In this document: positions 1,028-13,900 of the stretch, one piece after another
Numbering within the stretch: the stretch's first letter is position 1
Layout: every line of letters begins with the position of its first letter
NCBI RefSeq assembly: GCF_004804355.1
Contig: NZ_SRWZ01000004.1
Location: 1 to 64,000, forward strand
Reading direction: 5' to 3'
DNA from: Cognatitamlana onchidii
Lineage (GTDB): Bacteria > Bacteroidota > Bacteroidia > Flavobacteriales > Flavobacteriaceae
Length of the DNA: 64,000 nt
Notes under the pieces: generated by a model
The model's database searches: none
What the model was told of the DNA's origin: nothing
What the model saw: only the letters and a program-made list of their open reading frames with translations
Translations under genes and position numbers: made by a program

Positions 1028-1377
1028 TGAAATTACCTAAAACGTTTAAAGGTTTAATAGAGCAAGCCAATCAACTAGATCTTTACCAGAAACTTATTGA
1101 ACAATTAAACAAGGATTTTAAGCTCGCGAATTTGGATTTAGAGTTTCATGAAGATGTGTTACCAGCGAGCTTAAAAGTACTGCTTCATGAAACCCTGTAT
1201 ATACTTATTCAAGAAAAATTTACAGAGTATTTGAACTTACTGTATATAATTGACGTTCCAGAAAATCAGGTAAAGTCTCTTAATGGGGACGCTATATTAA
1301 AATTATCTGAAGAGGTATCATTTCTTATTTTACTCAGAGAATGGCAAAAAGTTTGGTTTAAGAATAAATACGCTTAA
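1027..1377 (+). CDS. Conserved hypothetical protein coupled to prenyl synthase
   Basis: 116-aa soluble, largely alpha-helical protein with no signal peptide, no membrane segment and no motif I recognise. Its ATG shares a base with the stop codon of the prenyl synthase (TAATG), so the two are translated as a coupled pair. The last codons and stop codon form one side of a perfect 12-bp inverted repeat that probably acts as the terminator of the opposing scdA gene. Function unknown; the pairing suggests a role near isoprenoid synthesis but does not show one. Confidence 0.75.
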   Translation: MKLPKTFKGLIEQANQLDLYQKLIEQLNKDFKLANLDLEFHEDVLPASLKVLLHETLYILIQEKFTEYLNLLYIIDVPENQVKSLNGDAILKLSEEVSFLILLREWQKVWFKNKYA

Positions 1378-1384
1378 ACCAAAC
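1351..1384 (-). terminator. Intrinsic terminator of scdA, embedded in opposing CDS
   Basis: Perfect 12-bp inverted repeat GTTTGGTTTAAG / CTTAAACCAAAC with a 10-nt loop. Read on the minus strand the stem is followed directly by five T residues, the layout of a Rho-independent terminator 10 bases past the scdA stop. On the plus strand there is no T-run, so it works mainly for scdA. The stem covers the last codons and the stop of the plus-strand gene. Confidence 0.7.
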
Positions 1385-1393
1385 TATTTGAAA

Positions 1394-2119
1394 TTAAGAG
1401 TTTTTGGCCACACTATTTTCTAAAGCAATAGCTTTAGGATGCAAAATGTTATTTTCTAGATGCACATGCTGGTGCAGATCTTGTTCAAACTCTTCTAATT
1501 TTGCGTATAGGGCTCTAAAGGTATTACAGGCTCCTTCTGGCGGTGTATAATTATTTGATAATTGAGCAATGGTCTTAAATATATCTCCGGCAGATTCATG
1601 CTCTGTTTCCATCATATGAATGGGGTTATTTACGGTTTCAAATGGAGGTGTTTCAAGTTTAGTTCCTGATTTTTGAAGCGCTAAAAGCTTTTTTACATAA
1701 GGAAATAAAATGAGTTCTTCTTTTTTAAGGTGGGCCGCCAGTTCATTTGCTACCTCGGTAAACAAACTATTTATTTTAACCACTTCGCTGTAATGATGAC
1801 CATGAACCTTGGCAACTTTATTTGAGTATTGAAGGATTAGCGGAATAGATTCTTCTACATAGGTATGGTGAATGTTTACTATATGATCTAACAAGAAATC
1901 TAAACTCCAAGAGTTATAGTCATAGGCTTTTGGAGCATCGTCTACTTGTAGTAGTTCCGCTTTTAGTTGCTCGTAATTTTGGTTGTTCTTTTCGCATGCT
2001 TTTTCAATGGTTATACCACCACCACAACAAAAGTCGATGCCATATTTTTTAAAAACATGAGCTGTTTTAATATTGTTTGCCACGACCTGAGCAACTGTTT
2101 TATTTTCTAAAGTGTCCAT
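1394..2119 (-). CDS. scdA: Iron-sulfur cluster repair di-iron protein (RIC/ScdA/YtfE)
   Basis: 241-aa cytosolic protein of the RIC family, which repairs Fe-S clusters damaged by nitric oxide or peroxide using a hemerythrin-type di-iron centre. The N-terminal ScdA_N domain (about residues 1-60) shows the typical GIDFCCGGG motif with C31 and C32. The C-terminal hemerythrin-like domain holds conserved His/Glu motifs such as IHHTYVEE, HLKKEELILFPY, HMMETEHESAG and HVHLENNILHPKA. The gene sits beside the nitrous-oxide reductase island and has a promoter with an Fnr-type site, which fits induction under nitrosative conditions. Confidence 0.93.
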   Translation of the reverse strand: MDTLENKTVAQVVANNIKTAHVFKKYGIDFCCGGGITIEKACEKNNQNYEQLKAELLQVDDAPKAYDYNSWSLDFLLDHIVNIHHTYVEESIPLILQYSNKVAKVHGHHYSEVVKINSLFTEVANELAAHLKKEELILFPYVKKLLALQKSGTKLETPPFETVNNPIHMMETEHESAGDIFKTIAQLSNNYTPPEGACNTFRALYAKLEEFEQDLHQHVHLENNILHPKAIALENSVAKNS

Positions 2120-2159
2120 AATATAATTTAAGATAATTTTGTCTTTTATTGTTGTTTAA

Positions 2160-2202
2160 CAAAAGTATAGTCCACCTGTTTTAAAAAATATGACATTTGT
2201 TA
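2160..2202 (-). promoter_or_regulatory. scdA promoter with Fnr-type site
   Basis: The -7 box TACTTTTG is at 2167-2160 on the minus strand. Upstream lies TAAC-AAAT-GTCA (2202-2191), a degenerate Crp/Fnr-type TGAY-N4-RTCA site. Its centre is 36.5 bp from the last base of the box, i.e. about -41.5 from a start site 5 nt past the box, the class II activator position. The identical spacing at two other promoters in the island raises confidence. Confidence 0.6.
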
Positions 2203-2234
2203 GGATTTAGTTTTAGCTAAAAATTACGATTCTC

Positions 2235-4235
2235 TTAAAGAAATTTAATAGATGTATTGATGTAGAAGTTTCTACCTTGTCTAGGAATATTATTCCAATC
2301 AGCAAAAGTGGAATAATTCGTGTCTAAAATATTTTCAATCCCATATTTAAAAATAACGTTGGTCGTTTTAAAATAGACGATATTACCAAAATTTACGTTT
2401 AATATGGCATAAGCCGGTGTTTCGTTTTCTCCATAAAACGGACTGTATTTACTTTGATTGCCATTGCCCTCAAGCTGAAGCGCCGCATTAAATTTTGGTT
2501 TGTTGTAATTAACTTCTGCTAAATAAGAAAAAGGTTTTATAAGAGGTAGGTTTTTTTTATTGCTACCACTACCATGATTATAACCAATAGAACTATTAAA
2601 ACCTATAGTTTTAGTAAGTGCAATATTCGAGTTTAAATATATATTAAAAATATTGGCATAGTTTAAAGCGTCGTAAACTCGAACCCCATTCGCTCCAATG
2701 GTCATAGGGCTTATGGAAGGATTGATTTCCCCAATTATATAGTCTGAAATATGGAAAAAGGAAGTTTCAAGTCCTAAACTGAAAGTGTTAAATTTATGGT
2801 TGGTTCTGGCATTAAATTCTAAAGCTTTTTCGTTTTTTAGATTGGGGTTTCCTATATAATCATATCTATCAAAACTATTAAATAAGAAAAACCCATAGCC
2901 CTCACTAACAGAAGGAGCCCGCTCTCCATAACCCAATCCAATTGAGGCGTCAATATTTTGGTTTTTAAATCCATAATCTGCAGATACACTCTTTAAAAAC
3001 CGAGTTTGAGTATCTTGTAAATCTGGATAGAAAATTCTCAAACTGTTTAAACCAACCTCGTTGGCAATTCTATTTTTATGGTAGCCAAATCTTATGTTTG
3101 CTGATACGGTTTCACGCTCACTAATAGCAATACGATCTTTCACATAAATACCTGAGTAAAGTGTCCTAACATCGGGCCAGGTATACATAAACATATCAGG
3201 TTCGTTGGGGTTATTCGAAAACATGGTCATTTCAGCTAAAGAGCGGTTATAGTAACCATTTAAATTCGCCGAAATGTTATGGTTGTTTGCTTTTACTCTT
3301 GCTTTAGTATAAAAACCATAGGTGTCACTCCAACCCGGCATATCCATTCTTATAGGGACATCAGGTCGTTTACTATCGTCCATAATATGGGTTATAGTGT
3401 TCAAGTATAATTTGGTTTCTAAAGACTTTATAAATGTTGATTCGTTCTTGTAACGGTGGGACGCCGAGGCAATAAAAGCTTCTGCCAAAGACACATCCAT
3501 TGGTAAAGCAGGGTAACCAACATCTGTTGCTTTATCATAAATAATATTGGTTTCTAGAGTGTGGTTGTTTGAAAGTTTATAACCGCCCTGCAAGGAGATG
3601 TTATACTTTTGAAATTGAGAGTATCTAACCTCTTCATTACCCCCAGCTATATAGTTATCTGATTTTCTAAAAATACCATCTGTTGCTATGTAGAATTTGC
3701 TGCCAGAGTATTCAAAATCTAAACCTGCTATTCTATAATTACCATTTGTTTCATAACCTAAATCGGCATTTGTTTTTAATCCAGAACCATTAAATTTTGA
3801 CTGAGAAATTTGTAAATCGATACCGCCACCAATACAATGTCCGTTTTCGGTGCCTTCTTGTCCTGAGTTTATAGTTGCCTGTTCTAAGTTCGATACATCA
3901 ACGTATGAAGTTATGGGATCCATTTTATCTGTGCAGGCTCCAAATATTTGCATGCCATCAATAGTTACATTTAATCTATCGCTGGTCATATTGTTCATGG
4001 CAGGCTCCCAAGCGTAGTTTCCACGTTTTATCATGGTAACCTTATTAGATTTTTCTAAAAACACATCAATACTTGACAGTGTTTTTTCTTGCCTGTAATT
4101 ACTCAGTTTCCGCTCAGCCACAACTATAATCCTTTCCAGGTTAGTCGTGTCGCGTGCTACAAAAAGACTGTCTTGCTGTGCAAAAAGTACTTGCCCACCA
4201 ATCAAATAGAAACTAAAAATTATGAGATGCTTCAT
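2235..4235 (-). CDS. TonB-dependent outer-membrane copper receptor, OprC/NosA-like
   Basis: 666-aa TonB-dependent receptor with a signal peptide ending near QVLFAQ, a plug domain (about 35-145) and a 22-strand-type barrel ending in Phe-Leu. The plug holds GACTDKMDP, giving C101-x3-M105, and the barrel has THIMDD, giving H283-x-M285. This reproduces the CxxxM...HxM copper site of Pseudomonas OprC (C143, M147, H323, M325) with almost the same separation (182 versus 180 residues). OprC and P. stutzeri NosA import copper needed by N2O reductase, and this gene adjoins the nos genes. It lacks the N-terminal carboxypeptidase-like domain common in SusC-type receptors. It follows the Met-rich lipoprotein gene in the same direction. 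Confidence 0.88.
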   Translation of the reverse strand: MKHLIIFSFYLIGGQVLFAQQDSLFVARDTTNLERIIVVAERKLSNYRQEKTLSSIDVFLEKSNKVTMIKRGNYAWEPAMNNMTSDRLNVTIDGMQIFGACTDKMDPITSYVDVSNLEQATINSGQEGTENGHCIGGGIDLQISQSKFNGSGLKTNADLGYETNGNYRIAGLDFEYSGSKFYIATDGIFRKSDNYIAGGNEEVRYSQFQKYNISLQGGYKLSNNHTLETNIIYDKATDVGYPALPMDVSLAEAFIASASHRYKNESTFIKSLETKLYLNTITHIMDDSKRPDVPIRMDMPGWSDTYGFYTKARVKANNHNISANLNGYYNRSLAEMTMFSNNPNEPDMFMYTWPDVRTLYSGIYVKDRIAISERETVSANIRFGYHKNRIANEVGLNSLRIFYPDLQDTQTRFLKSVSADYGFKNQNIDASIGLGYGERAPSVSEGYGFFLFNSFDRYDYIGNPNLKNEKALEFNARTNHKFNTFSLGLETSFFHISDYIIGEINPSISPMTIGANGVRVYDALNYANIFNIYLNSNIALTKTIGFNSSIGYNHGSGSNKKNLPLIKPFSYLAEVNYNKPKFNAALQLEGNGNQSKYSPFYGENETPAYAILNVNFGNIVYFKTTNVIFKYGIENILDTNYSTFADWNNIPRQGRNFYINTSIKFL

Positions 4236-4271
4236 AAGAACCTGATTCTTAGCGATGATATTTTGATAATA

Positions 4272-4398
4272 GGTTGACTGAAAGGTGTTTGCAAAACGTC
4301 ATTACGAGAAACTTCAATTTCGAAGTAATCTCATAACTTAGTAAAACGATTTTAAAGATTCCTTCACGTTGTTCGGAATGACAACCTTTCAGTCAGCC
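4272..4398. repeat. Palindromic MITE/REP-like element
   Basis: About 127 bp with 14-bp terminal inverted repeats, GGTTGACTGAAAGG at 4272-4285 and its complement CCTTTCAGTCAGCC at 4385-4398 (one G-T mismatch). Inside is a second inverted pair, GTCATTACGAG (4298-4308) and TTCGGAATGAC (4372-4382), related to the GTCATTGCGAG-type dispersed palindromes found in many bacteria. It has no coding capacity and separates the Met-rich lipoprotein from the TonB receptor gene. Copy number elsewhere in the genome cannot be seen here. Confidence 0.65.
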
Positions 4399-4420
4399 TT
4401 TTCATAAGTTTAAGGGAATG

Positions 4421-5269
4421 CTAAAATTCCAATTCTAAATACAATGAGCTTTTTTCGTTTTGCTCAGTAATATCCTCTCCTTTTAAAAGTTCGTCTGCAG
4501 CGTTCATTAGTTTTAAGTTCAACACCCAATAGCCAGTCATGGTTAAGGACAAATCTGCATGATACATAGTGTCTATGGCATTAAAGCTTAAATCGGTGTT
4601 ATTCGGCGAACTATGATTCCCCATGCCTGGCATTCTTGGATCTAGTGCAATTTTAAAATTCTCAACAACCGGGAATGACATCATGTTTTCCATTTTGTAA
4701 AGCCCAACCATCATATCATTTATTCCAATGCTTGGTTTTATAGGTTCAATAAGTGCAACGATATAGCGTGTTTCGTCGGACCCCATGAAGCTTGTAACAT
4801 TTTGCTTTTCAGATTGCGTAACACTAATAGTGTCTTTAGCCGAGTACTCCTCACTGCCTATTGAATAATTAAAAGTCAAAGACCAACCAGAACCATCTGT
4901 ATTGGTCATTTGGTAAATTACAGAAGCTGTATATAAAGTTTTCTTGTTAGAAACTTTTGAGATGGTAGAGTGGGGACAAGAGTGTTGCATAGACGGCATC
5001 TGCATCATAGGCATCCAATTAATATTGGCGTTTTCAATGTAGCTGTCATCGCTATTATTTTTAATCCGAATGGTTACATTGTTGTATCCTGTTTTAAATG
5101 CGCCAGCTTCATTGTATAATTCAATGGTATGATTATCGTTGGCAATGGTTTTAATATTTACAAGGCCTTCAACTTCATTTATTTCTTCTGGAGTTTCAAC
5201 GTCTTCAGTCGAACAAGATATTGTGAATAATGTAATACACAGTAATGTGAAAATATATTTTAGTTTCAT
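4421..5269 (-). CDS. Met/His-rich lipoprotein, putative copper binding
   Basis: 282-aa lipoprotein: a hydrophobic leader ends in the lipobox FTISC with Cys19, so it should be anchored in the outer or inner membrane. Two regions of beta-rich sequence (about 35-135 and 160-275) resemble YtkA/FixH-like Ig folds. Both contain Met/His-rich loops, WMPMMQMPSMQHSCPHS (about residues 85-101) and a PRMPGMGNHSS loop, typical of Cu(I) handling in the periplasm. It lies between the small Cys-rich gene and the copper-type TonB receptor. Copper binding is inferred from composition and context. I do not recognise the family with certainty. Confidence 0.75.
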   Translation of the reverse strand: MKLKYIFTLLCITLFTISCSTEDVETPEEINEVEGLVNIKTIANDNHTIELYNEAGAFKTGYNNVTIRIKNNSDDSYIENANINWMPMMQMPSMQHSCPHSTISKVSNKKTLYTASVIYQMTNTDGSGWSLTFNYSIGSEEYSAKDTISVTQSEKQNVTSFMGSDETRYIVALIEPIKPSIGINDMMVGLYKMENMMSFPVVENFKIALDPRMPGMGNHSSPNNTDLSFNAIDTMYHADLSLTMTGYWVLNLKLMNAADELLKGEDITEQNEKSSLYLELEF

Positions 5270-5340
5270 TTTAATATTTTTTGTTAAATAGTATGTAGGG
5301 ATGCTTCGGGATACATTTCAAATGAGTCCGTAGCGGTATA

Positions 5341-5359
5341 GAAATCACATGATGATTTC
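5341..5359 (-). other. Intergenic hairpin in copper operon
   Basis: GAAATCA-CATGA-TGATTTC forms a 7-bp stem with 5-nt loop in the 114-bp spacer between the small Cys-rich gene and the Met-rich lipoprotein gene. There is no T-run after it on the minus strand, so it looks like a processing or stability element rather than a terminator. Confidence 0.35.
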
Positions 5360-5383
5360 GTTATTCTGACAATAAAAATTTAA

Positions 5384-5776
5384 CTAAAAAGAGGGGGGAG
5401 GTGTTTCAACCTCAAGTAAGGTTTTTGTAATCCGATTGGATGTATGTATAAGAATTTTTTTGGAGGAAATAATGTCATCTAGATTCTTGTTAATTACATC
5501 GTTTTTAACAAGGTAAAAAGTATCTAAGTAGGTTCGTTTGTTTTCTGGAGAAGGACTTTCTGTATTCGTGTCTGTGTTATTCTTTGCTAATTGCTTTTTT
5601 AAGTGGCATTTACCGTTACAGCCTTGTTGGTCCTCTTTTTGAATACAAAGCGTTTTAGCTATAAAATCTTGATTGATAACGAAGTCGCCAACAATAGCGA
5701 GTGTATTAATATTGTTAGCTAGCAAGATGCTAACCAATAGTAAAGAAGTGATTTTATATGCAATCCCCTTAATCAT
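5384..5776 (-). CDS. Small Cys-motif membrane/periplasmic protein of copper operon
   Basis: 130-aa protein with one N-terminal hydrophobic segment (about 8-30), then a soluble part. This part holds CIQKEDQQGCNGKCHLKKQL (C43, C52, C56 and H57), a potential metal site. Similar small proteins with a CNGKCHL core occur beside TonB receptors in Bacteroidetes as far as I recall, but no function is established. It is the first gene of a unit with the Met-rich lipoprotein and the OprC-like receptor. The promoter box ends 5 nt before the ATG, so the transcript appears leaderless. Confidence 0.7.
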   Translation of the reverse strand: MIKGIAYKITSLLLVSILLANNINTLAIVGDFVINQDFIAKTLCIQKEDQQGCNGKCHLKKQLAKNNTDTNTESPSPENKRTYLDTFYLVKNDVINKNLDDIISSKKILIHTSNRITKTLLEVETPPPSF

Positions 5777-5780
5777 GCCG

Positions 5781-5823
5781 CGAAGATAGTCTTTTTATGT
5801 TTTTTAAAAAATGATACATGTCA
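5781..5823 (-). promoter_or_regulatory. Copper-operon promoter with Fnr-type site
   Basis: TATCTTCG at 5788-5781 (minus strand) is a one-mismatch -7 box. TGAC-ATGT-ATCA (5823-5812) is a near-perfect Fnr/Dnr-type palindrome. Site centre (5817.5) to the last base of the box is 36.5 bp, the same as at the scdA and cytochrome c promoters. With a start 5 nt past the box, transcription begins at the A of the ATG and the site is centred at -41.5. Confidence 0.65.
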
Positions 5824-5835
5824 TTCTATTTAGTT

Positions 5836-6618
5836 TTAGAAATCTTTCTTCTTGGCTTTAAATATGATACGGGTAACAGGTAAAACCACCCATATGATGA
5901 GTGTTACAAACGAAATAATTAGACCAAAATTAGTACCAAAAAACTTTTTGAATATGGCTCCAGTATACCCCAGAAGTGCAGAAATGTCTAGTTTTAAAAG
6001 TATTAATGTTCTTGACAAATCAATGGGATTAAGCAAAGTACCCACCAACGATAGCTTATCTAACGGATATTCTTCAAATAGAATTAAGGACATTAAAAAC
6101 AAGCCGTCGTAAATAATGGCTAAAAATAGCCATAATAGGATGGCAAAGCCAAAACCTTTTATTTTGTTTACTTGCGAAAGAGCAATATTAAATGCCAGCG
6201 CTGTAAAAATAAAGGTTAAGAACGATTCTGTAATTAGAAGTAGTGAAAAGTCCCAAATTGCATTCGATTTAAACAAGCCATAGAAAACAAATGGAATACC
6301 TAAACCTAAAATTAAGCTTAACGATAATGATATGGCAACGCCCAAATACTGGCCTAAAAATATAGATGAGCGTTTTAAAGGTTGCGCCAATAATAATTCT
6401 GTAAATTCTTTTGAATTATAATAATACATTACTCCGAATATGGTACCTATTAGCGGAACCAAAACAATGATTACATTCATTAATGTAATTACTGCTTTTG
6501 ATAAATTGTTATTTAAAAACAACAATACAATTCCCAAGAGTAAATAAAACGCGAAATACACATAGCTCCAGCGGCTGCGCATTAAATCGTAAAAACTATA
6601 TTTTAATATTTTAAGCAT
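5836..6618 (-). CDS. nosY: NosY, ABC-2 permease for N2O reductase maturation
   Basis: 260-aa inner-membrane permease with about six transmembrane helices, the partner of the NosF ATPase. NosDFY supplies sulfur and/or copper for CuZ assembly of N2O reductase. The ATG at 6618 (MLKILKYSF) overlaps the end of nosF by 8 bases; a longer in-frame reading starting at 6654 lies deep inside nosF and is less likely. The region around residue 90 (LAQPLKRSSIFLGQYLG) is typical of ABC-2 permeases. Last gene of the cytochrome c-nos operon; an independent promoter for the next unit lies just beyond it. Confidence 0.9.
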   Translation of the reverse strand: MLKILKYSFYDLMRSRWSYVYFAFYLLLGIVLLFLNNNLSKAVITLMNVIIVLVPLIGTIFGVMYYYNSKEFTELLLAQPLKRSSIFLGQYLGVAISLSLSLILGLGIPFVFYGLFKSNAIWDFSLLLITESFLTFIFTALAFNIALSQVNKIKGFGFAILLWLFLAIIYDGLFLMSLILFEEYPLDKLSLVGTLLNPIDLSRTLILLKLDISALLGYTGAIFKKFFGTNFGLIISFVTLIIWVVLPVTRIIFKAKKKDF

Positions 6619-7318
6619 AATTTTCTTGTAAAATGGAAGCAATGGCATGCTCAAAATCTGGTTGATTGGTTTTAGATTTTAAGTTGCTTATGCTGCCTTT
6701 AAAATATATTTGACCTTCCAACAGAAACACAATTTCATCAGATACTTCTTCAACGAAACTCATGATGTGTGATGTAATTAGTATGGTTTTGCCTTTAATT
6801 TTTTCGGCTTGAATCAAGTCTTTTAGCCTTATAAGTGAAATTGGGTCGAGGCCTGTTGTAGGTTCGTCTAAAATAATAATTGGGCTATCAAACATAAAGG
6901 TTAAAACAATATTGACTTTTTGTTTGGTTCCACCCGACAAGTTTCCGAGTTTTTTATCTAAAAAAGGTTCTAGTTTAAAAAGTGCAATTAAGGATTGGTC
7001 TAAATCTGTTTTGCCCCTTAAATCCTTAATCATTTTGATGAGTTCCTTAACTTTTAAGTTGTTTGGGAAATTGGCAATTTGCGGTAAATAATCAATTTGA
7101 TATTTGTATTCTGAACTTTTATTTATGTTCTTTCCCAGAACTTCAATAGTCCCTTTGTTAGGAATTACCATTCCTAATATAGATTTTATTAAAGTGGTTT
7201 TGCCTGACCCGTTTGGACCAAGTACTGCAAAAATACCGCCGTTGACAATGCTTAGATCAACACCTTTTAAAACGTGGTTTTTTCCGAATTTTTTATGTAA
7301 ATCTTGAATGTTTACCAT
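6611..7318 (-). CDS. nosF: NosF, ABC transporter ATPase for N2O reductase maturation
   Basis: 235-aa ABC ATPase with Walker A GPNGSGKTT (about 34-42), signature LSGGTKQK (about 132-139), Walker B IIILDEPTTGLD and switch His in LITSHIMS. It powers the NosDFY complex at the inner membrane. It overlaps nosD by 7 bases upstream and nosY by 8 bases downstream, so the three are translationally coupled. Identification rests on the nosD and nosY neighbours, since the ATPase alone resembles many ABC-2 partners. Confidence 0.93.
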   Translation of the reverse strand: MVNIQDLHKKFGKNHVLKGVDLSIVNGGIFAVLGPNGSGKTTLIKSILGMVIPNKGTIEVLGKNINKSSEYKYQIDYLPQIANFPNNLKVKELIKMIKDLRGKTDLDQSLIALFKLEPFLDKKLGNLSGGTKQKVNIVLTFMFDSPIIILDEPTTGLDPISLIRLKDLIQAEKIKGKTILITSHIMSFVEEVSDEIVFLLEGQIYFKGSISNLKSKTNQPDFEHAIASILQENYA

Positions 7319-8547
7319 ACGATTTGTTTTGTGAGCGGATTATGGTCCAACAGGTTATCTGGAGTAAAAACAGGTGATACTTTTTCAGAAAAATCAATAA
7401 TGTCAATAAACAGGCTACGAAGCAAAATGATGGTTTCTGGTGTTCTGTTAACGATGTAAGAAAACAGTTTTACTGGTCTGTAAGGTACATCGCCAATACC
7501 ATCTTTGTTTAAGTCGTAGCCTGTGTAATTACTCCAATAGTTTTTGTCGAACTTATTATCGTTTACCTTGCTGTTGTATGAAATATCAAAGGAATTATAA
7601 AGGAAATTATTTTCTAAAAAATGGTTGCCATAACAAGCGCCTCTTACTTTAATGGCCCAACCATTATTTGTGAAATTGTTGTTTTTGTATTCTATTCGGT
7701 TTGAACCTTCAATGTTGATGCCAATGGTGTTTTCTTTAAAGGTATTGCCCCTAATTTCTGCGTCATTAATTTCCTTTAAAAGCATACCGTAAGAGGCCGT
7801 TCCCCAATTTTTTTGAAAGGTGTTATTTAGCATTTTTATTTTCTTGGAAAACATAACAGCAACACCAGCACCGTTGTTCTCAAAAACATTGTCTTGATAC
7901 ACATCATCATTTGAGAACATAAAATGCAGTCCGTAGCGGAGGTTCTCGGCGCTTACATTATTCTTAATGATACAATTATTAGAAAATTCTAAATAAATGC
8001 CATCTCGAACATGCTCAACATAATTGTGTTCAATATCTATATAGTTGCTATACCACAGCTGAATGCCGTTGCCGGAGTTGTATTCTTCGACGGCATCACC
8101 AATAACTTTGTTATGAAAAATGCGCCCGTAGTTTGATTTTTCAATATAGATTCCGAAAAACATCTTTTCTAAAACTACATTCTGAATGGTAAAATGTTTG
8201 CTTTTTCTTACGCGTATAGCTGCATAATCTTCAGTGTAACTACTTCCAACGTTGATTATAAATAAGCCATCAACCCTAACGTTGTCGGATGTAATTGTAA
8301 TAATCTCGCCTTTTAATTCGCCGTCAATGACAGGGTAATCTTGACCAATTATGGCTAGGGGTTTGTCAATGTTAATATTGTACTCTTTATAGGTTCCTTT
8401 TTTTACATAAATGGTGTCAAAATCTTTGGCATGCGCTATGGCCTCCTTTAAAGACGTCCATGTACAGGTTTGGCATACCTCAGTGTTTTGAGCATAACTT
8501 ACGTAGGCCAATAGAATGGCCGTTAAAAAAAGGATAGTTTGTTTCAT
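7312..8547 (-). CDS. nosD: NosD, periplasmic beta-helix copper maturation protein
   Basis: 411-aa secreted protein with signal peptide (cleavage near VSYAQ) and a right-handed parallel beta-helix built from Asn-rich PbH1/CASH repeats (about 80-330). NosD binds the NosFY transporter on the periplasmic side and assists CuZ-centre assembly of NosZ. The N-terminal VCQTCTW cysteine pair (around residue 24-27) may bind metal or form a disulfide. It sits 3 bases after nosL and overlaps nosF, as in most nos operons. Confidence 0.93.
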   Translation of the reverse strand: MKQTILFLTAILLAYVSYAQNTEVCQTCTWTSLKEAIAHAKDFDTIYVKKGTYKEYNINIDKPLAIIGQDYPVIDGELKGEIITITSDNVRVDGLFIINVGSSYTEDYAAIRVRKSKHFTIQNVVLEKMFFGIYIEKSNYGRIFHNKVIGDAVEEYNSGNGIQLWYSNYIDIEHNYVEHVRDGIYLEFSNNCIIKNNVSAENLRYGLHFMFSNDDVYQDNVFENNGAGVAVMFSKKIKMLNNTFQKNWGTASYGMLLKEINDAEIRGNTFKENTIGINIEGSNRIEYKNNNFTNNGWAIKVRGACYGNHFLENNFLYNSFDISYNSKVNDNKFDKNYWSNYTGYDLNKDGIGDVPYRPVKLFSYIVNRTPETIILLRSLFIDIIDFSEKVSPVFTPDNLLDHNPLTKQIVW

Positions 8548-8550
8548 GCG

Positions 8551-8988
8551 TTACTTGCTAAAATGAGCTAAAAGTGTTTTCCATGAATATATTTTTCCAT
8601 CTTTTTGTTCTTGCATGTTTTGGGCTTCTTCTGGGGTTTTAAAAGCCGATAAAAATGCACCCATGGGACTAGGTATGTTCTTACTTATTAAAAAGGTTGC
8701 TTTAGTAGCGTCAATGAAGGCTTCAGGTTCTAGGAAATTGTTTGATAAATACAGCTGAATTTGTTTGGTATCAAATTCATCCATGAAATGTATCATGCAT
8801 TCGGTAGCATCAAATTTATAAACTTTGCCTTTTTTTGTGACTATTTCTGCGGCGTGAACTTTATCAACAATAGTCATTTTACAAAAATGGCAGCTGTCAT
8901 TACCATAATCAATGGGTTTTGGCGAAACATTGCAGCCTACACTGACTAAAAGTAATGCAAGAATAGAATAGTGTTTTAGTGTTTGCAT
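8551..8988 (-). CDS. nosL: NosL, copper chaperone lipoprotein
   Basis: 145-aa lipoprotein with lipobox SVGC (Cys19), followed by the NosL signature CHFCKMTI that includes the Cu(I)-binding Cys and Met residues, and a later TECMIHFMDEF segment. NosL delivers copper to apo-N2O reductase in the periplasm. It lies between the four-helix membrane protein and nosD in the nos operon. Length is typical for the family. Confidence 0.93.
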   Translation of the reverse strand: MQTLKHYSILALLLVSVGCNVSPKPIDYGNDSCHFCKMTIVDKVHAAEIVTKKGKVYKFDATECMIHFMDEFDTKQIQLYLSNNFLEPEAFIDATKATFLISKNIPSPMGAFLSAFKTPEEAQNMQEQKDGKIYSWKTLLAHFSK

Positions 8989-9026
8989 GTTTTAGTGTTT
9001 TAAATTGAAAAGGTGTTTTTACATAC

Positions 9027-9620
9027 TTATGCAGTTTGTTTGTTATTTTTTTTGCCAATGAGAAAGGCAACAAAAGAAGCAGCAATACCCAAACCTAAAA
9101 ATATGGCCCCTAATTGCGGGTACGAATGTGCTTTAAAATTAAGAATGTCTTTGCTACCAAATAAGGGTGGTTGAAAGCCCATGACAGAACCATCTGGATT
9201 TGTAAATTTCATGATGGCTTTAGGGTCAAGATCATGGCCATAATCATGTTCCCATAAATAGAAATCATATAATCCGGCAGCGCCCATAACAATCATTAAA
9301 ATGAACCAAGCCAAAAACCACTTGTAATTTCCTTTAAACCCAATTAATAGGCCTAAGATGGTTGTAATAACAATGGCTATTGGAAATATTTTGAATTCAG
9401 GAATAGACTCTGGGATGTATTTCATGCCTACGTAATGATTCATAAGATTGATGTTTTTGATGTCATGCGGATGCACATCAGAAAAGTCATTAATATGAAT
9501 ATACATACCCAACGGAATTGGATATTGAGGCGCTTCAAGGGTTATTTTCCAAAGCGGAAAAAGAAATAATCCTAAAGGTAATATTGATGCGATAAGCATT
9601 ACGATGTTTGACCTTTTCAT
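9027..9620 (-). CDS. Four-helix membrane protein of nos operon
   Basis: 197-aa protein with four predicted membrane helices (about 8-25, 80-95, 101-123 and 170-192). A periplasmic loop after helix 1 holds DVHPHD, and a second after helix 3 holds WEHDYGHDLDP; these His/Asp clusters could bind metal. It follows nosZ directly, the place taken by nosB in other clade-II clusters, but I cannot show homology to NosB. A longer reading from a TTG at 9644 adds eight residues; the ATG at 9620 is chosen because it begins MKRSN and leads straight into helix 1. Possible roles are quinol or electron transfer to NosZ, or maturation; neither is shown. Confidence 0.75.
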   Translation of the reverse strand: MKRSNIVMLIASILPLGLFLFPLWKITLEAPQYPIPLGMYIHINDFSDVHPHDIKNINLMNHYVGMKYIPESIPEFKIFPIAIVITTILGLLIGFKGNYKWFLAWFILMIVMGAAGLYDFYLWEHDYGHDLDPKAIMKFTNPDGSVMGFQPPLFGSKDILNFKAHSYPQLGAIFLGLGIAASFVAFLIGKKNNKQTA

Positions 9621-9663
9621 AATTTCAAGAAGTCTAAAGTTCAATTCCTAGCGTTTTAAAAGA

Positions 9664-9728
9664 AAGGCGAGAGCGAAAAATGCTCTCGCCTTATGTAAGA
9701 GAATAAACACTAAAACAAAATTCTCTTA
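9664..9728 (-). other. Tandem hairpins downstream of nosZ
   Basis: Two stems lie in the spacer after the nosZ stop. The first met is TAAGAGAAT/ATTCTCTTA (9728-9720 with 9704-9696, 15-nt loop). The second is AAGGCGAGAGC/GCTCTCGCCTT (9692-9682 with 9674-9664, 7-nt loop), GC-rich for this genome and followed on the minus strand by TTCTTTT. Together they look like a partial terminator or 3'-end stabiliser that would keep nosZ mRNA in excess over the accessory genes. Confidence 0.65.
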
Positions 9729-9735
9729 TGTTGTT

Positions 9736-11706
9736 TTATTCAATATCTTCTCCTAACGACCATCTTAATGGTGTGCTTGAATTTGTTGGAGACACACGAA
9801 CATATCCCTGCATTTCTTGGTGCAATGCAGAACAGAAATCAGTACAGTAGAAAGGCCATACGCCAACTTCTTTAGGTTCCCAAAGGAATGTTTCGGTTTG
9901 TCCTGGCATAATTAAAAGTTCTGATGTGTTTGCGCCAATTATACTAACGCCATGAGGCACATCGTAATCTTGCTCAAGGTTGGTAATATGGAAATATACT
10001 TTATCTCCCACTTGTATACCTTCAATGTTGTCTGGAGAAAAGTGAGATCGAATAGTGGTCATGTAAATATGAACTGTTTTACCGTCTCTAACCACCTTAG
10101 TGTCTGCTTCACTCTTGGTCGCATAAGGGTGGTTGTTTTCTTCTAGTTTGAATAGTTTTTTAGAACGTGGTTTAATTAAGTCGGCAGGGCATCCAGCGGC
10201 ATAATGGGGCTCGCCAACCGTTGGAAAATCCAATAAGAGTTCCATTTTATCTCCCGAAATATCATATAATTGGGCAGATTGGGTAACCTCGGGACCCGTT
10301 GGTAAATAGCGGTCTTTTGTGATTTTGTTCATCGCAACAACATATTTCCCAAAAGGTTTTTGCGAGTTACCCCCAGGAATCATTAAGTGTCCTACAGAGT
10401 AGAAACATGGTTGTCTGTCAATAACTTCCCAAGTTCCTAATTTCCATTTTACAACTTCCGAAGAAATAAAGAACGTAGTGTATGCGTTTCCTTTACCATC
10501 AAACTCTGTGTGTAAGGGTCCTAAGCCTGGTTGTTCAACAACACCGGCTAAAGATGCTTCAAAGTCAATGATTGGAATACCGTACGCATCACCTGCAAAA
10601 CTTTGGTTTTCAATGGCAGCAAGCATTTTTGTAAAAGAATGAACCGTTAAGTTTGCAGAAAGTTTTCCGCTACCAACAATATATTCTCCACTAGGATCTA
10701 CATCACAACCATGAGGCGATTTTGGTGTTGGCATTAAGTAAACAGCCCCAGGAACGTCAAGCGGGTTTACAGTGAGTACTTCAGTTTTCATTGTTGAAGT
10801 CGCCGAATGAGTAGACTCATCATAAACATTGTGTGCATACTTGGTAGGCATCATTTTTCCACCACCGTTATTTACATAGTCTTCAATTTTTTTCCAGTTA
10901 ACAGCGGCAATAAAATCTTTATCATTTTGAGACGCGTTTACTTCCATTAATGTACTAGCTTCCTCAGTATTGTAAGTACTAAAGAAGAACCAGCCATGCG
11001 ATTTTCCGCGTCCAGGGTGTGATAAATCATAATCAAATCCTGGCATGATTAATTGGAATTTAATATCCATATGTCCGTGTTCTGGATCTACAGAAATAAA
11101 CGAAAGCGCCCCTTTAAAGTTGCCTTTGTAATCTTTAATTGGCATGTCTTTTTGTGGAATTGGCACTGAGAAACGCGTACCAGCCACAACATACTCCGTG
11201 TTTTCTGTAACAAATGACGAACTATGGTTACCTGCACTATTAGGCACTTCTATAATTTCGGTAGTTTCAAAAGTTGACAAATCAATTTTGGCAATACGTG
11301 GGGTATTATTACCATTTATAAATACCCAACGCCCATCAATGACACCGTTTGTTTGAGAAATATCAGGGTGGTGAGAATCATCCCAAGGCACAAAACCGTG
11401 AGAGGTGTTTAACATAGGTTTGGTTTCTTCATTATAACCATAAGCTTTTTCTGCATCTTGAGAGAATACAGGAATTACTTTAAATAAGCGTCCAGATGGA
11501 AGTCCGTAAACAGATAATTGCCCACTGAAACCACCAGAAATGAAGGCGTAAAATTCATCATGCTCTCCTGGAGCCACATATACCTTTTCAGCCACGTTTC
11601 CTGCTAGAGCTCCAGATTTATTGCCCGATTGGTCTGAATTGTTACAACTTGTAAATGCTACAAGAAGACTTAACAGTGCAACGGCAGATTTAATAAGATT
11701 TTTCAT
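9736..11706 (-). CDS. nosZ: Nitrous-oxide reductase NosZ (clade II type)
   Basis: 656-aa N2O reductase that reduces N2O to N2 in the periplasm, the last step of denitrification. The N-terminal seven-bladed propeller carries seven candidate CuZ histidines: H112-H113 (DDSHHP), H161, H332 (SPHGCD), H399 (LHTEF), H440 (VGHLMIPG) and H501 (GEPHYA), matching the order of the known set. The C-terminal cupredoxin domain has the CuA ligands H585, C621, C625, H629 and M632 (CTDFCSALHQEM). The leader is a Sec type with no twin-arginine motif, the mark of clade II enzymes, and it ends in AFTSC (Cys21), so the protein may be a lipoprotein. All catalytic ligands appear intact. It follows the fasciclin gene by 28 bases. 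Confidence 0.97.
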   Translation of the reverse strand: MKNLIKSAVALLSLLVAFTSCNNSDQSGNKSGALAGNVAEKVYVAPGEHDEFYAFISGGFSGQLSVYGLPSGRLFKVIPVFSQDAEKAYGYNEETKPMLNTSHGFVPWDDSHHPDISQTNGVIDGRWVFINGNNTPRIAKIDLSTFETTEIIEVPNSAGNHSSSFVTENTEYVVAGTRFSVPIPQKDMPIKDYKGNFKGALSFISVDPEHGHMDIKFQLIMPGFDYDLSHPGRGKSHGWFFFSTYNTEEASTLMEVNASQNDKDFIAAVNWKKIEDYVNNGGGKMMPTKYAHNVYDESTHSATSTMKTEVLTVNPLDVPGAVYLMPTPKSPHGCDVDPSGEYIVGSGKLSANLTVHSFTKMLAAIENQSFAGDAYGIPIIDFEASLAGVVEQPGLGPLHTEFDGKGNAYTTFFISSEVVKWKLGTWEVIDRQPCFYSVGHLMIPGGNSQKPFGKYVVAMNKITKDRYLPTGPEVTQSAQLYDISGDKMELLLDFPTVGEPHYAAGCPADLIKPRSKKLFKLEENNHPYATKSEADTKVVRDGKTVHIYMTTIRSHFSPDNIEGIQVGDKVYFHITNLEQDYDVPHGVSIIGANTSELLIMPGQTETFLWEPKEVGVWPFYCTDFCSALHQEMQGYVRVSPTNSSTPLRWSLGEDIE

Positions 11707-11734
11707 TGTATTTTGAGTTATTTAGAGTTAGTGA

Positions 11735-12307
11735 TTATTCAGATGGGGGTAAAAGCACTTTATCAATGACATGTACGATGCCATTACCAGCTCTTACACT
11801 TGCAATGATATTAGCGCCACCAATAACAGCTTTGCCATCCACAACTTCAACCTGAACATATTGATTATTGGCCTGTCCTAGTTTTTTAAGCTTAGTTAAA
11901 ATGGCTGGGCTTAAATTGCCAGGTGTTACATGGTACTTTAAAATATTAGCCAATGTTGCTTTATTTTCTGGTTTAACCAGATTTTCAACGGTACCTTCTG
12001 GCAGGGCAGCGAAGGCTGCATCGGTTGGAGCAAAAACAGTAAGTGGTCCCACATTAACTAGGGCATTCTCAACTTGAGCAGCTTGAACAGCAGCAACTAA
12101 CGTTTTATGGTCTGGCGATCCTATAGCTATTTGTAGGCAGTTAGGCATACCTTCATCATCTTGAATAAAGGCCTGTCCAGTTTTGGAGTTTGGTGCTTCA
12201 GCTTCGTTAGCTGTAGAGGTCTGAGGGGCATCTTTGTTACTGTTTTTACAGGAGTAGATAAAAGCTACTAATGCAAAAACCATAAATACTTGTTTAATGG
12301 TTTTCAT
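11735..12307 (-). CDS. Fasciclin (FAS1) domain lipoprotein in nos operon
   Basis: 190-aa lipoprotein (FIYSC, Cys20) with a single FAS1/BIGH3 domain at about 55-188. Recognisable blocks are LVAAVQAA, GPLTVFAPTDAAFAALP and the closing GIVHVIDKVLLPP. FAS1 domains are usually adhesion or protein-interaction modules. Its place between the cytochrome c and nosZ genes suggests a periplasmic role with NosZ or its electron donor, but no biochemical role is known to me. Confidence 0.85.
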   Translation of the reverse strand: MKTIKQVFMVFALVAFIYSCKNSNKDAPQTSTANEAEAPNSKTGQAFIQDDEGMPNCLQIAIGSPDHKTLVAAVQAAQVENALVNVGPLTVFAPTDAAFAALPEGTVENLVKPENKATLANILKYHVTPGNLSPAILTKLKKLGQANNQYVQVEVVDGKAVIGGANIIASVRAGNGIVHVIDKVLLPPSE

Positions 12308-12320
12308 ATTTAGTTGGGTA

Positions 12321-12821
12321 TTATAGTGTTCTAAAGTATTCTAGTACAGCTCTGGCATCTTCCTCAGAAAGGTTTTGATTTGCCATTGGCGAACCGTTAA
12401 ACTCAATTAATAGCGCTCTGGCAAGCGGGTCTTTCTGAGTCATTTCGTCTGGGTTAAGAATCATATTCATAACCCATTCGGGTGTTCTTCTTTTTAGAAT
12501 GTCTTTTGGAGCAGGGCCAATAAACTTTTTATCAGCTCTATGGCAGGCCGTACACATTTTTTTGAAAACATCTTCGCCTTTGGCCGCCATTTCTTTGTTT
12601 ATTTCCGCATTTAGAGCTAGCGATGTAATAGGACCAATACCTTTGTTGCTTAAATCTATGGTTTTCGAAGCGGGTACTTTTTCGGCTTTTGTTGTTGTGG
12701 TAGCCTCTGTTGTCGTTTTTTTGTCATAAGAAAAACTTTCTTTTTTCTTTTTCTCTTTTCCGCCGCAACTTAGCAGAAATACAATAAGTAATGTAGATAG
12801 GATTTTTATTGTTGTTTTCAT
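12321..12821 (-). CDS. c-type cytochrome lipoprotein, probable electron donor to NosZ
   Basis: 166-aa lipoprotein (lipobox LLSCG, Cys19) with a Lys/Thr-rich linker and one monohaem cytochrome c domain. The haem motif CTACH lies near residue 95 and a distal Met is likely in GSPMANQ or DEMTQ. First gene of the nos operon. In clade II systems lacking NosR a small cytochrome c often carries electrons to the CuA site, so this role is inferred. Its promoter has a perfect Fnr-type palindrome. Confidence 0.9.
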   Translation of the reverse strand: MKTTIKILSTLLIVFLLSCGGKEKKKKESFSYDKKTTTEATTTTKAEKVPASKTIDLSNKGIGPITSLALNAEINKEMAAKGEDVFKKMCTACHRADKKFIGPAPKDILKRRTPEWVMNMILNPDEMTQKDPLARALLIEFNGSPMANQNLSEEDARAVLEYFRTL

Positions 12822-12840
12822 AAAAGTGTAGTTTATATTA

Positions 12841-12915
12841 CAAAGCTATTTGGTTACGACAAGAAATAATATGATAAAAATCATATTTAGGATATCATTA
12901 TCTTTTTTATTTTTG
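12841..12915. promoter_or_regulatory. Divergent nos / Rrf2 promoter region with perfect Fnr-type palindrome
   Basis: AATATGAT-AAAA-ATCATATT (12868-12887) is a perfect 20-bp palindrome with the Fnr core TGAT-N4-ATCA. On the minus strand the nos -7 box TAGCTTTG is at 12848-12841, 36.5 bp from the palindrome centre to its last base. On the plus strand TATTTTTG (12908-12915) serves the Rrf2 gene at 37.5 bp. One site thus sits near -41.5 of both divergent promoters. An Rrf2/NsrR operator is an alternative reading. Confidence 0.72.
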
Positions 12916-12933
12916 TTGTTAAATTGCTATATA

Positions 12934-13365
12934 ATGTTTTCAAATTCATCAAAGTATGCCATAAAGGCGGTTCTCTATTTATCTTTGCATTCTAATTCTA
13001 CCCGAAAAATCATGGCGAAGGACATTGCTCAGCCAATTAATGTGCCTCCGGCTTATATTGCTAAGTTATTACAGGAACTTGTGAGAACAGACTTGGTGTC
13101 GTCGGTTAGAGGACCTAAGGGTGGTTTTTTTATGAGTAAAGAGAATAACAACCAAAAAGTAATTGATGTTTTAAACGTTATTGATGGCGAGAAGAAGTTT
13201 ACGGGGTGCCTTCTTAGTTTGGAAGCCTGCAATGAGGAAAAACCATGTCCGCTGCATAACATTCTGAGTACTTCAAGACAACATATGATAAAAGTACTTA
13301 ATGAACATAGTATTGCCGATTTGGCGCTGGCTGTTAAAAATGGAAAAGCCTATTTACCTTTGTAG
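12934..13365 (+). CDS. Rrf2-family Fe-S transcriptional regulator
   Basis: 143-aa winged-helix regulator with the Rrf2 start KYAIKAVLYLSLHS, recognition region PPAYIAKLLQELVR and wing RGPKGGF. The Fe-S ligand set is C92-x6-C99-x5-C105 followed by H108, close to the IscR/NsrR pattern, so it probably senses NO, oxygen or Fe-S status. The ATG at 12934 is chosen because MFSNSSKYA begins the domain; a longer reading from 12850 runs through the promoter and operator. It is divergent from the nos operon and shares a regulatory palindrome with it. Confidence 0.88.
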   Translation: MFSNSSKYAIKAVLYLSLHSNSTRKIMAKDIAQPINVPPAYIAKLLQELVRTDLVSSVRGPKGGFFMSKENNNQKVIDVLNVIDGEKKFTGCLLSLEACNEEKPCPLHNILSTSRQHMIKVLNEHSIADLALAVKNGKAYLPL

Positions 13366-13366
13366 T

Positions 13367-13900
13367 TTAAAAATAGAATCTCACAAAAGGGGCCCATGGA
13401 TCTGCATAAATGCTTCGATCATCATCGTATAATACATCATAACGTATCCCAACGGCAACATTGTTACTTCTATATCCCAGTCCAAGATATAATGCTGGAA
13501 GCCAATAGTTTTCATTTCTGATATTCAGGCTTGTATCGTAGTTTCTATCAACATTGAGTTGCTCAAATTCTGCCGATATTTGTAGTTGAGGTATCACATT
13601 ATACAGACCGATAATACTGGCTCCTAAAACAGTAGAATTATATACGTTTTTTTGACTGTTGTATGTAAAATTTAACCCCAAACCTAAGGCAAATTGTTGG
13701 TCGAACTGGTAAATGGCGCTGGGGGCTAGGGTTCCGCTAAAAAAACCACTTCCAAAGTTTAGTCCAATGCCTCCTCCATACCGCATATGACTCCAGAAAT
13801 CATGTTTCGTTTCTTGAGCTGAAGAGATTTTAGCAGATAGAAAAAATACGATCAGAATTAAACATGTTTTTTTACTAATAGAAATAAATAGGCGTAACAT
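13367..13900 (-). CDS. Outer-membrane beta-barrel protein
   Basis: 177-aa protein with signal peptide (cleavage near ISSAQ) and alternating beta strands ending in FVRFYF, with terminal Phe, typical of small eight-strand outer-membrane barrels. Its stop codon is 1 base past that of the convergent Rrf2 gene, and its start is divergent from sucA. Homologues beside sucA may carry misleading database names taken from that neighbour; nothing in the sequence suggests an enzyme. Function unknown. Confidence 0.8.
   Translation of the reverse strand: MLRLFISISKKTCLILIVFFLSAKISSAQETKHDFWSHMRYGGGIGLNFGSGFFSGTLAPSAIYQFDQQFALGLGLNFTYNSQKNVYNSTVLGASIIGLYNVIPQLQISAEFEQLNVDRNYDTSLNIRNENYWLPALYLGLGYRSNNVAVGIRYDVLYDDDRSIYADPWAPFVRFYF

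Follow-up and report, generated by a model that had tools for sequence, protein, structure and literature searches.

The stretch of Cognatitamlana onchidii DNA analyzed here, referred to as the window, comprises positions 1 to 64,000 of contig NZ_SRWZ01000004.1 (64,000 nucleotides) and carries on its minus strand the nos operon for nitrous oxide (N2O) reductase and, downstream of nosY, a gene for an OprC-type TonB-dependent receptor. This receptor (P0001; 666 residues; positions 2235 to 4235 including the stop codon) was identified from its open reading frame (ORF) and by homology. It belongs to a three-gene cassette, newly described here, in which it is preceded by a small triple-cysteine protein ending in a proline pair (PP), named S130, and by a methionine-rich lipoprotein, named LIP. 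At the sequence level, an OprC-type site in the receptor is combined with a near-constant lipoprotein partner, an invariably present head gene, a promoter-like site also found before nos, and co-occurrence with nosZ.

The receptor and its predicted copper site

A sequence-only reading of the receptor gene had noticed a CxxxM...HxM signature resembling the copper site of OprC, and both a single-protein phmmer alignment and a profile alignment confirm that it stands in the register of the OprC ligands. In the plug, C101 (codon at 3933-3935) and M105 (3921-3923) delimit the motif C101-TDK-M105 (3921-3935, minus strand) and lie opposite OprC C143 and M147; in the barrel, H283 (3387-3389) and M285 (3381-3383) delimit H283-I-M285 (3381-3389, minus strand) and lie opposite H323 and M325. 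The phmmer search of PDB sequences returned six distinct matches at E ≤0.001, all of them OprC or OprC mutants (best E 1.2e-13), and a profile of the 46-row alignment A2 found OprC at E 5e-28 as its sole match at 1e-5. C101 and H283 are separated by 182 residues, compared with 180 between C143 and H323 in OprC (residue numbers and roles from PMC8610252; this and the other papers are cited from their accessible portions), so that both distances given in the earlier reading are correct. M246 (3498-3500, minus strand), a candidate methionine-track residue, lies opposite OprC M286, a silver-track ligand, and M297 and M299 fall in the same stretch as OprC M339-M343 in the sequence alignment. We predict that the four residues constitute an OprC-type copper site. 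The earlier reading had noted that the same solution appears in Bacteroidetes; convergence was rejected because the profile alignment to OprC spans profile positions 45 to 642 of 661, and the site is best explained, as judged from this alignment, by descent within the OprC superfamily.

A search of 299 genomes from the family of the window yielded 121 with a match, which were grouped by identity into tier 1 (59-100%, 24 genomes), tier 2 (47-57%, 27 genomes), tier 3 (39-43%, 12 genomes), and tier 4 (about 25%). The last was delimited with a separate profile, A3, matching 93 of the 299 genomes; the 60 that scored at least 778 bits form tier 4 and the remainder scored below 300 bits, with three candidates scored per genome, so that further copies may be missed. 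Two genomes with weak pieces only (G169 and G137) were omitted from the tiers. Eighty receptor neighbourhoods were compared, and 77 receptors were aligned, 61 from tiers 1 to 3 and 16 from tier 4, excluding the broken or cut receptors of loci L067, L116, L123, and L124. C101, M105, H283, and M285 are invariant in all 77, down to 23% identity, and they and M246 are among only 24 invariant columns of 666. M83, M297, M299, M336, and M348 are invariant in tiers 1 to 3 and absent from all 16 tier-4 rows, 6 of which have M95. The lone exception at the site is M285V in one of the 46 rows of A2 (L188). A phylum-wide search found the four residues in 20 of 20 high-scoring loci; these include the window's own receptor and L224, from a genome already represented among the 77, and 13 are from other Bacteroidota families. 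The conservation among orthologues to which the sequence-only reading had tied its proposal is thus observed both within the family (77/77) and beyond it (13/13). A further set of loci from named genomes (L141-L220) was collected by a pattern containing CxxxM and hence gives no independent support for C101 and M105.

No second receptor match was found within the window's own genome, and no relative in viral contigs was confirmed. At L067 (G130:C1:419229-421217), a tier-1 receptor beside nos contains one in-frame stop while nosZ is open, and this receptor may be decaying. L124 (G121:C1, about 2189259) is a short C-terminal receptor piece directly behind a nos operon, and L123 (G272:C22, about 297085) is a broken tier-2-like piece. 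Receptor replacement would fit the latter two cases, since G121 and G272 both carry another CxxxM-HxM receptor elsewhere, of tier 3 and tier 4, respectively.

An AlphaFold2 model of the receptor built with A2 reached a mean predicted local distance difference test score (pLDDT) of 82.5 and a predicted template modelling score of 0.82, with residues 107-109, right behind the CxxxM motif, below a pLDDT of 50. In a Foldseek search, ranks 1 to 28 were all OprC chains (best E 2.5e-39), and structural alignments with OprC gave about 18-20% identity. By VIA-align, OprC (Z 36.9, root-mean-square deviation 2.5 over 590 residues) was tied with the zinc receptor ZnuD (Z 36.5), which shares the fold and whose site position is close to that of OprC (PMC8610252). 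This tie, as well as the import of chelated copper by CrtA of Bordetella pertussis (PMC12914433), raises the possibility that another metal, or a metal in chelated form, such as zinc or chalkophore-bound copper, is the cargo of the receptor and that the four residues are merely part of the path. We regard this as improbable, given that the Cys/Met/His/Met set is the same as that of OprC, that OprC was the sole sequence match in the PDB at the limits used, with ZnuD matching in neither the phmmer nor the profile search, that OprC occupies all leading Foldseek ranks, and that tier-3 cassettes have MbnP/MbnH-type neighbours (see below). The ligands of ZnuD presumably differ from the OprC-type set.

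The lipoprotein and the head gene

LIP (282 residues; 4421 to 5269, minus strand) is predicted to be a lipoprotein with lipobox cysteine C19 and two Ig-like domains. A protein of this kind, of about 280 residues, adjoins the receptor in 62 of 63 tier 1 to 3 loci, and a contig end truncates the remaining locus; the 16 tier-4 loci compared yielded no such protein. C19, M213, M216, H219, and M244 are kept in all 62 LIPs. The mature start is acidic, with CSTED in the window and CS[ST]DDD in many of 40 relatives, and resembles the surface-export signals SDDDD and SDDFE (PMC5080379). The structure model (pLDDT 90.6) shows the two Ig-like domains; among PDB structures, no informative relative was found (best Z 8.4, filamin). 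LIP is weakly YtkA-like: at E 0.1, 50 of 51 members match this Pfam family, and the window's LIP scores below the cut-off. A profile match in the PDB to a copper resistance protein was discarded as not significant (E 0.018).

In 11 of the 12 tier-3 cassettes (L110-L115 and L117-L121), two further gene families follow; in L110 they are represented by MbnP and by a di-haem enzyme of the MbnH type. Judged from these neighbours, the same receptor family appears to take part in a second copper module, in a copper context apart from nos; 7 of the 11 genomes lack nosZ.

S130 (130 residues; 5384 to 5776, minus strand) contains C44, the motif C53-x-G-x-C57-x-L59, and three prolines at 126-128. In all 79 of the loci with a receptor ORF of more than 430 residues, the first gene of the unit encodes a small protein of about 130 residues. 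Over 34 aligned rows with 16-60% identity to the window's S130, the only invariant residues are C44, C53, G55, C57, L59, P127, and P128; the cysteine motif is of the CxxxC type (C53-NGK-C57), with C, G, and C invariant in 34/34 rows. A PP within the last 12 residues is present in all 82 S130 homologues versus 28 of 1,097 other clustered ORFs, some of which are antisense. The distance from cysteine motif to PP is 67.9 ± 1.8 residues, and the intervening residues are poorly conserved. The N terminus is hydrophobic (Kyte-Doolittle), the gene is single copy in its genome, and no Pfam or NCBIfam family matched S130 at E 0.1.

CruR and CutF are leaders of copper operons: copper is sensed by a cysteine motif in the growing polypeptide, and two prolines at the C terminus act on the ribosome (PMC9426467, PMC9973294). 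Because its cysteine motif, C-terminal PP, and head position match this make-up, we infer that S130 is a Bacteroidota CutF/CruR-like leader that might sense copper and stall by analogy. Like the CutF-like proteins (PMC9973294), S130 has fewer than 150 residues, a CxxxC motif, a PP within the last 15 residues, and a same-strand gene less than 1,000 nt downstream, LIP starting 114 nt after it. The CXXC and RAPP motifs spaced 45 residues apart in CruR are not found in S130, which has the C-terminal motif TPPP. In the CutF-like collection, Bacteroidota are abundant in list D, TonB-like genes come second to OEP genes in their frequency as neighbours, and some members with very short gaps precede N2O reductase or NosR genes (PMC9973294). 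CutF raises copper oxidase expression in copper (PMC9973294); since the predicted target of S130 is an importer, the sign of its regulation is expected to be opposite.

In three proteobacterial plasmid records examined out of seven with an OprC-like receptor, from Thioclava, Pandoraea, and Cupriavidus (L247, L248, and L249), a DUF2946-type gene lies just upstream of the receptor in 3/3 cases, and the receptors have C-to-H distances of 183, 180, and 180. The Thioclava gene scored 21.6 bits, under the cut-off of 23.7. In the annotation, the upstream gene is DUF2946-type in Pandoraea and hypothetical in Thioclava, and the Cupriavidus record as examined carries none. A profile of the Bacteroidota small proteins did not match the Thioclava or Pandoraea DUF2946-type proteins.

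An ordinary exported copper chaperone, rather than a regulatory leader, would also suit the three invariant cysteines and the hydrophobic N terminus of S130. We consider this less likely, though not negligible, in view of the nearly fixed length of a poorly conserved stretch between cysteine motif and PP, the invariance of the PP near the C terminus, the position at the head of the cassette, and the DUF2946-type genes preceding the proteobacterial OprC-like genes examined.

Gaps between S130 and LIP, 114 nt long in the window (5270 to 5383, minus strand), are as RNA more structured than three of four control regions and less than the fourth. Their mean folding z of -2.26 over 45 gaps is a weak signal, with one control, around the receptor ORF start, at -2.75. 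An alignment of these gaps (A4) appeared too diverged for counting pairs, and an Rfam scan of positions 1300 to 13500 at E 0.1 gave no match.

The promoter-like site and the association with nosZ

The composite pattern ATGAN6TCAT-22 nt-TAnnTTnG occurs exactly twice in the window with both strands scanned, as exact matches on the minus strand before S130 (5781 to 5824) and before cytC, the first gene of the nos operon (12841 to 12884). We take the ATGAN6TCAT dyad to be of the CRP/FNR type, and TAnnTTTG is presumably the Bacteroidota -7 box. The sequence-only reading had suggested a promoter architecture shared by the receptor and nos; the sharing holds for nos and the cassette, and the site precedes S130 rather than the receptor gene. 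The 185 bp between LIP and the receptor (4236 to 4420, minus strand), with an imperfect inverted repeat that resembled regulatory dyads, were ruled out as a promoter: the repeat is a dispersed one that recurs as three further partial matches on other contigs, and the composite site is absent. The FNR consensus TTGAN6TCAA has one exact match, inside the NosB gene, and was not used.

In the family loci, the site was scored out of 14, and scores of at least 13 were counted. Such sites precede cytC in 33 of 36 loci of relatives and the small gene in 36 of 82 (tier 1, 13/24; tier 2, 17/27; tier 3, 0/15; tier 4, 6/16), compared with 0 of 62 before LIP, 1 of 63 before the tier 1 to 3 receptors, 0 of 16 before those of tier 4, 1 of 29 before the fasciclin gene, and 1 of 21 before the Rrf2 gene. 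Random 500-nt windows from the same loci gave 42 of 3,000, true sites included. The spacing of 22 accounts for 69 of the cytC and small-gene hits, any other spacing from 15 to 30 for 0 to 6. The named-genome loci, many of which are from the same species, gave at spacings 21-23: cytC 42/43, small gene 50/79, LIP 1/80, receptor 1/81, and random 61/3,000.

NosZ was called by TIGR04246 over its cut-off in 138 of the 299 family genomes, five genomes with pieces below the cut-off being counted as lacking it. nosZ is present in 21 of 24 tier-1, 27 of 27 tier-2, and 45 of 60 tier-4 genomes (among the remaining 15, G145 and G213 contain pieces), as well as in 4 of the 11 tier-3 genomes with MbnP/MbnH-type genes and in the twelfth tier-3 genome, G251. 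Of the 51 genomes in tiers 1 and 2 together, 48 have nosZ, compared with 90 of the 248 others (Fisher test, 2e-15; the Fisher tests on co-occurrence ignore shared ancestry); for genomes of any tier the figures are 95 of 119 versus 43 of 180. nosZ lies inside the compared locus in 20 of 24 tier-1 and 11 of 27 tier-2 cases. The link of the receptor to nos suspected from the window is supported by this co-occurrence of tiers 1 and 2 and by the tier-1 linkage. Among 296 genomes from across the phylum, 51 carry the receptor (A1, E 1e-30), 99 have nosZ over the cut-off, and 35 have both by hand count (Fisher test, 2e-8). Receptors of tiers 1/2 and tier 4 occur together in 2 nosZ genomes versus 15.7 expected (p 3e-8), and over all 299 genomes in 2 versus 10.2 expected (p 8e-4). 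Within nosZ genomes, the two receptor subfamilies are thus almost mutually exclusive.

Such counts, computed without phylogenetic correction, can be inflated by linkage and ancestry, and the cassette might move or be inherited with nos without serving it. This hitch-hiking has little probability in our view, considering that the cassette occurs downstream of nosY, with or without a reversed fasciclin gene in between, as well as upstream of cytC and, in nosZ genomes, unlinked, that some of the unlinked cassettes keep the same promoter-like site, and that the two receptor subfamilies nearly exclude each other.

The main competing explanation is a general copper importer for all cuproenzymes, chiefly cbb3 oxidase, which would lie beside nos through shared low-oxygen use. 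It is favoured by the three tier-1 genomes that keep the receptor without nosZ (G071, G093, and G115), by the scarcity of nosZ in tier-3 genomes of the MbnP/MbnH type, and by the CcoG family, of which one member (L064) was tested and which is present in the 20-kb loci of 8 of the 24 tier-1 receptors. It also agrees with the occurrence of OprC in non-denitrifiers and with a strain in which NosA is dispensable (PMC8610252), and with CrtA serving respiratory oxidases (PMC12914433). The tracking of nosZ by tiers 1 and 2 and the promoter-like site shared with nos argue against this explanation, and we consider it the less likely one, though not a negligible one.

Copper import, known systems, and neighbouring genes

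Based on these sequence comparisons, the receptor probably serves as the outer-membrane door for a copper-import operon, S130-LIP-receptor, which acts within the N2O-respiration programme and would import copper for N2O reductase. Under anoxia or N2O, a CRP/FNR-type activator would switch on both nos and the cassette through promoters of one kind, with the dyad 22 nt upstream of the -7 box. The nascent S130 chain would sense copper via the cysteines of CxGxC and would stall or be released at the C-terminal PP, letting transcription or translation through only under copper shortage, as CruR does for BfrG; therefore, if the leader senses copper, the receptor would be made only when copper is short. 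LIP at the surface might gather copper through its methionines and pass it to the receptor, where C101, M105, H283, and M285 would hold it until TonB energy moves it into the periplasm. There, NosL and NosDFY would load NosZ. With distinctly less confidence, it is tempting to speculate that in Bacteroidota N2O reducers two keys control this door: a nos-type CRP/FNR promoter, reporting that N2O respiration is under way, and a co-translational copper-sensing leader of a Bacteroidota type, reporting copper shortage, might together open an OprC-type receptor assisted by a surface lipoprotein, with the two receptor subfamilies substituting for one another.

Several observations weigh against this reading, among them the structural tie with ZnuD, the three nosZ-less tier-1 genomes, and the neglect of shared ancestry in the Fisher tests, all noted above. 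In addition, receptors of all four tiers are absent from 43 of the 138 nosZ genomes. The best NCBIfam model for the receptor, TIGR01778 (TonB-copper), scores 110.7 bits, below its cut-off of 472.45, and because of this score we treat the receptor as a divergent OprC-type subfamily. S130 has no match at E 0.1 to DUF2946 (PF11162), the family of CruR and CutF, and its spacing from cysteine motif to PP is 68 versus 45 in CruR and CutF. The small gene lacks a promoter-like site at score 13 in 11 of 24 tier-1, 10 of 27 tier-2, 15 of 15 tier-3, and 10 of 16 tier-4 loci, including L122, a tier-3 locus beside nosZ. Finally, the precedent of NosA is contested. The sequence-only reading had stated that such receptors supply copper to NosZ in denitrifiers, which agrees with the finding that nosA mattered in Pseudomonas stutzeri JM300 and disagrees with another strain, in which its loss altered neither NosZ activity nor copper content (PMC8610252).

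With OprC of Pseudomonas aeruginosa and NosA of P. stutzeri (TIGR01778), the receptor shares the CxxxM-HxM register, the fold of TonB-dependent receptors, and methionine residues in the same stretch. It differs in its lipoprotein partner, its tie to clade II nos, and a head gene not recognizable as DUF2946. P. aeruginosa oprC is likewise preceded by a small Cys/PP gene, a cruR homologue (PMC9426467). In B. pertussis, CruR heads the operon of the copper receptor BfrG/CrtA, and copper switches this operon off (PMC9426467). That operon resembles the cassette in having a small exported Cys/PP leader in front of a copper TonB-dependent receptor (PMC9426467, PMC12914433) and differs in the CXXC and RAPP motifs of its leader and in its third gene, which encodes a PepSY_TM protein and not a lipoprotein. 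BfrG/CrtA itself belongs to another sequence cluster of TonB-dependent receptors and, according to the accessible part of PMC12914433, has no conserved Cys or Met.

The CxxxM-HxM motif was published for a flavobacterial TonB-dependent receptor, G2EC70 of Bizionia argentinensis, in 2024 (PMC11213822). The locus tag of G2EC70 lies between those of CcoG and NosL, the same order as in L064 (G107). That paper does not mention nosZ, and its accessible part describes neither a cassette nor a leader gene. Flavobacterial nos clusters described in the accessible parts of PMC9697520 and PMC7477175 include nosZ, nosB/nosL, nosD, nosF, and nosY and name no receptor, and TonB does not appear in that of PMC11148229. 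In the open-licence literature, outside which most subscription papers lie, we found no paper tying a CxxxM-HxM receptor to Bacteroidota nos. Within this literature, what is new is the connection of the cassette with nos, together with the promoter-like site and the leader; the CxxxM-HxM motif itself had already been reported from a flavobacterium.

N2O reductase, a copper-requiring enzyme, is the known biological sink for N2O, and clade II Bacteroidota are widespread N2O reducers. If the proposal is correct, a dedicated, co-regulated copper importer would offer a clean system for settling the NosA question, and the cassette would predict strains that still reduce N2O under copper scarcity. 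Whether copper for N2O reductase is imported through the outer membrane has been debated since NosA, with knock-outs giving conflicting results (PMC8610252). The proposal would also add a copper-sensing leader in a phylum for which the accessible parts of the CruR and CutF papers report no experiment (PMC9426467, PMC9973294).

The nos operon of the window, all on the minus strand, is of clade II (Sec type) by family models and gene position. It starts with cytC, encoding a cytochrome c (12321 to 12821), followed by a gene for a fasciclin-domain protein (11735 to 12307) and nosZ for the Sec-dependent NosZ (9736 to 11706; TIGR04246, 937 bits, cut-off 625). Next come a NosB-type membrane protein (9027 to 9644), which matches no family and was named by its position and the NHYxGM and YGH motifs described for flavobacterial NosB (PMC9697520), the copper chaperone NosL (8551 to 8988; over the Pfam cut-off), and NosD (7312 to 8547; TIGR04247, 450 bits, cut-off 300). 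The ABC ATPase NosF (6611 to 7318) and the ABC-2 membrane protein NosY (5836 to 6630; Pfam match below the cut-off) were named by position. NirK was not found in the genome of the window; other nitrite reductases were not searched for. Directly behind the receptor, a RIC-type iron-sulfur repair protein is encoded at 1394-2119 (TIGR03652 over the cut-off).

Among the tier-1 loci, the fasciclin-domain gene between cytC and nosZ is found in 20, the same number as for nosZ, and the RIC-type family in 10 of 24. Two protein families had no Pfam match in the one member tested of each: a 395-residue protein near the receptor (L061:7811-8995), present in 8 tier-1 loci, and a 141-residue protein between nosY and S130 (L062:8551-8973), present in 9. 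Three small genomes carry two adjacent NosZ-like ORFs each (G128:C10:24902-29000, G207:C68:2582-6631, and G233:C7:42-4068), one ORF of each pair scoring 657-662 bits and the other, with an open frame of 740-771 residues, 387-404 bits.

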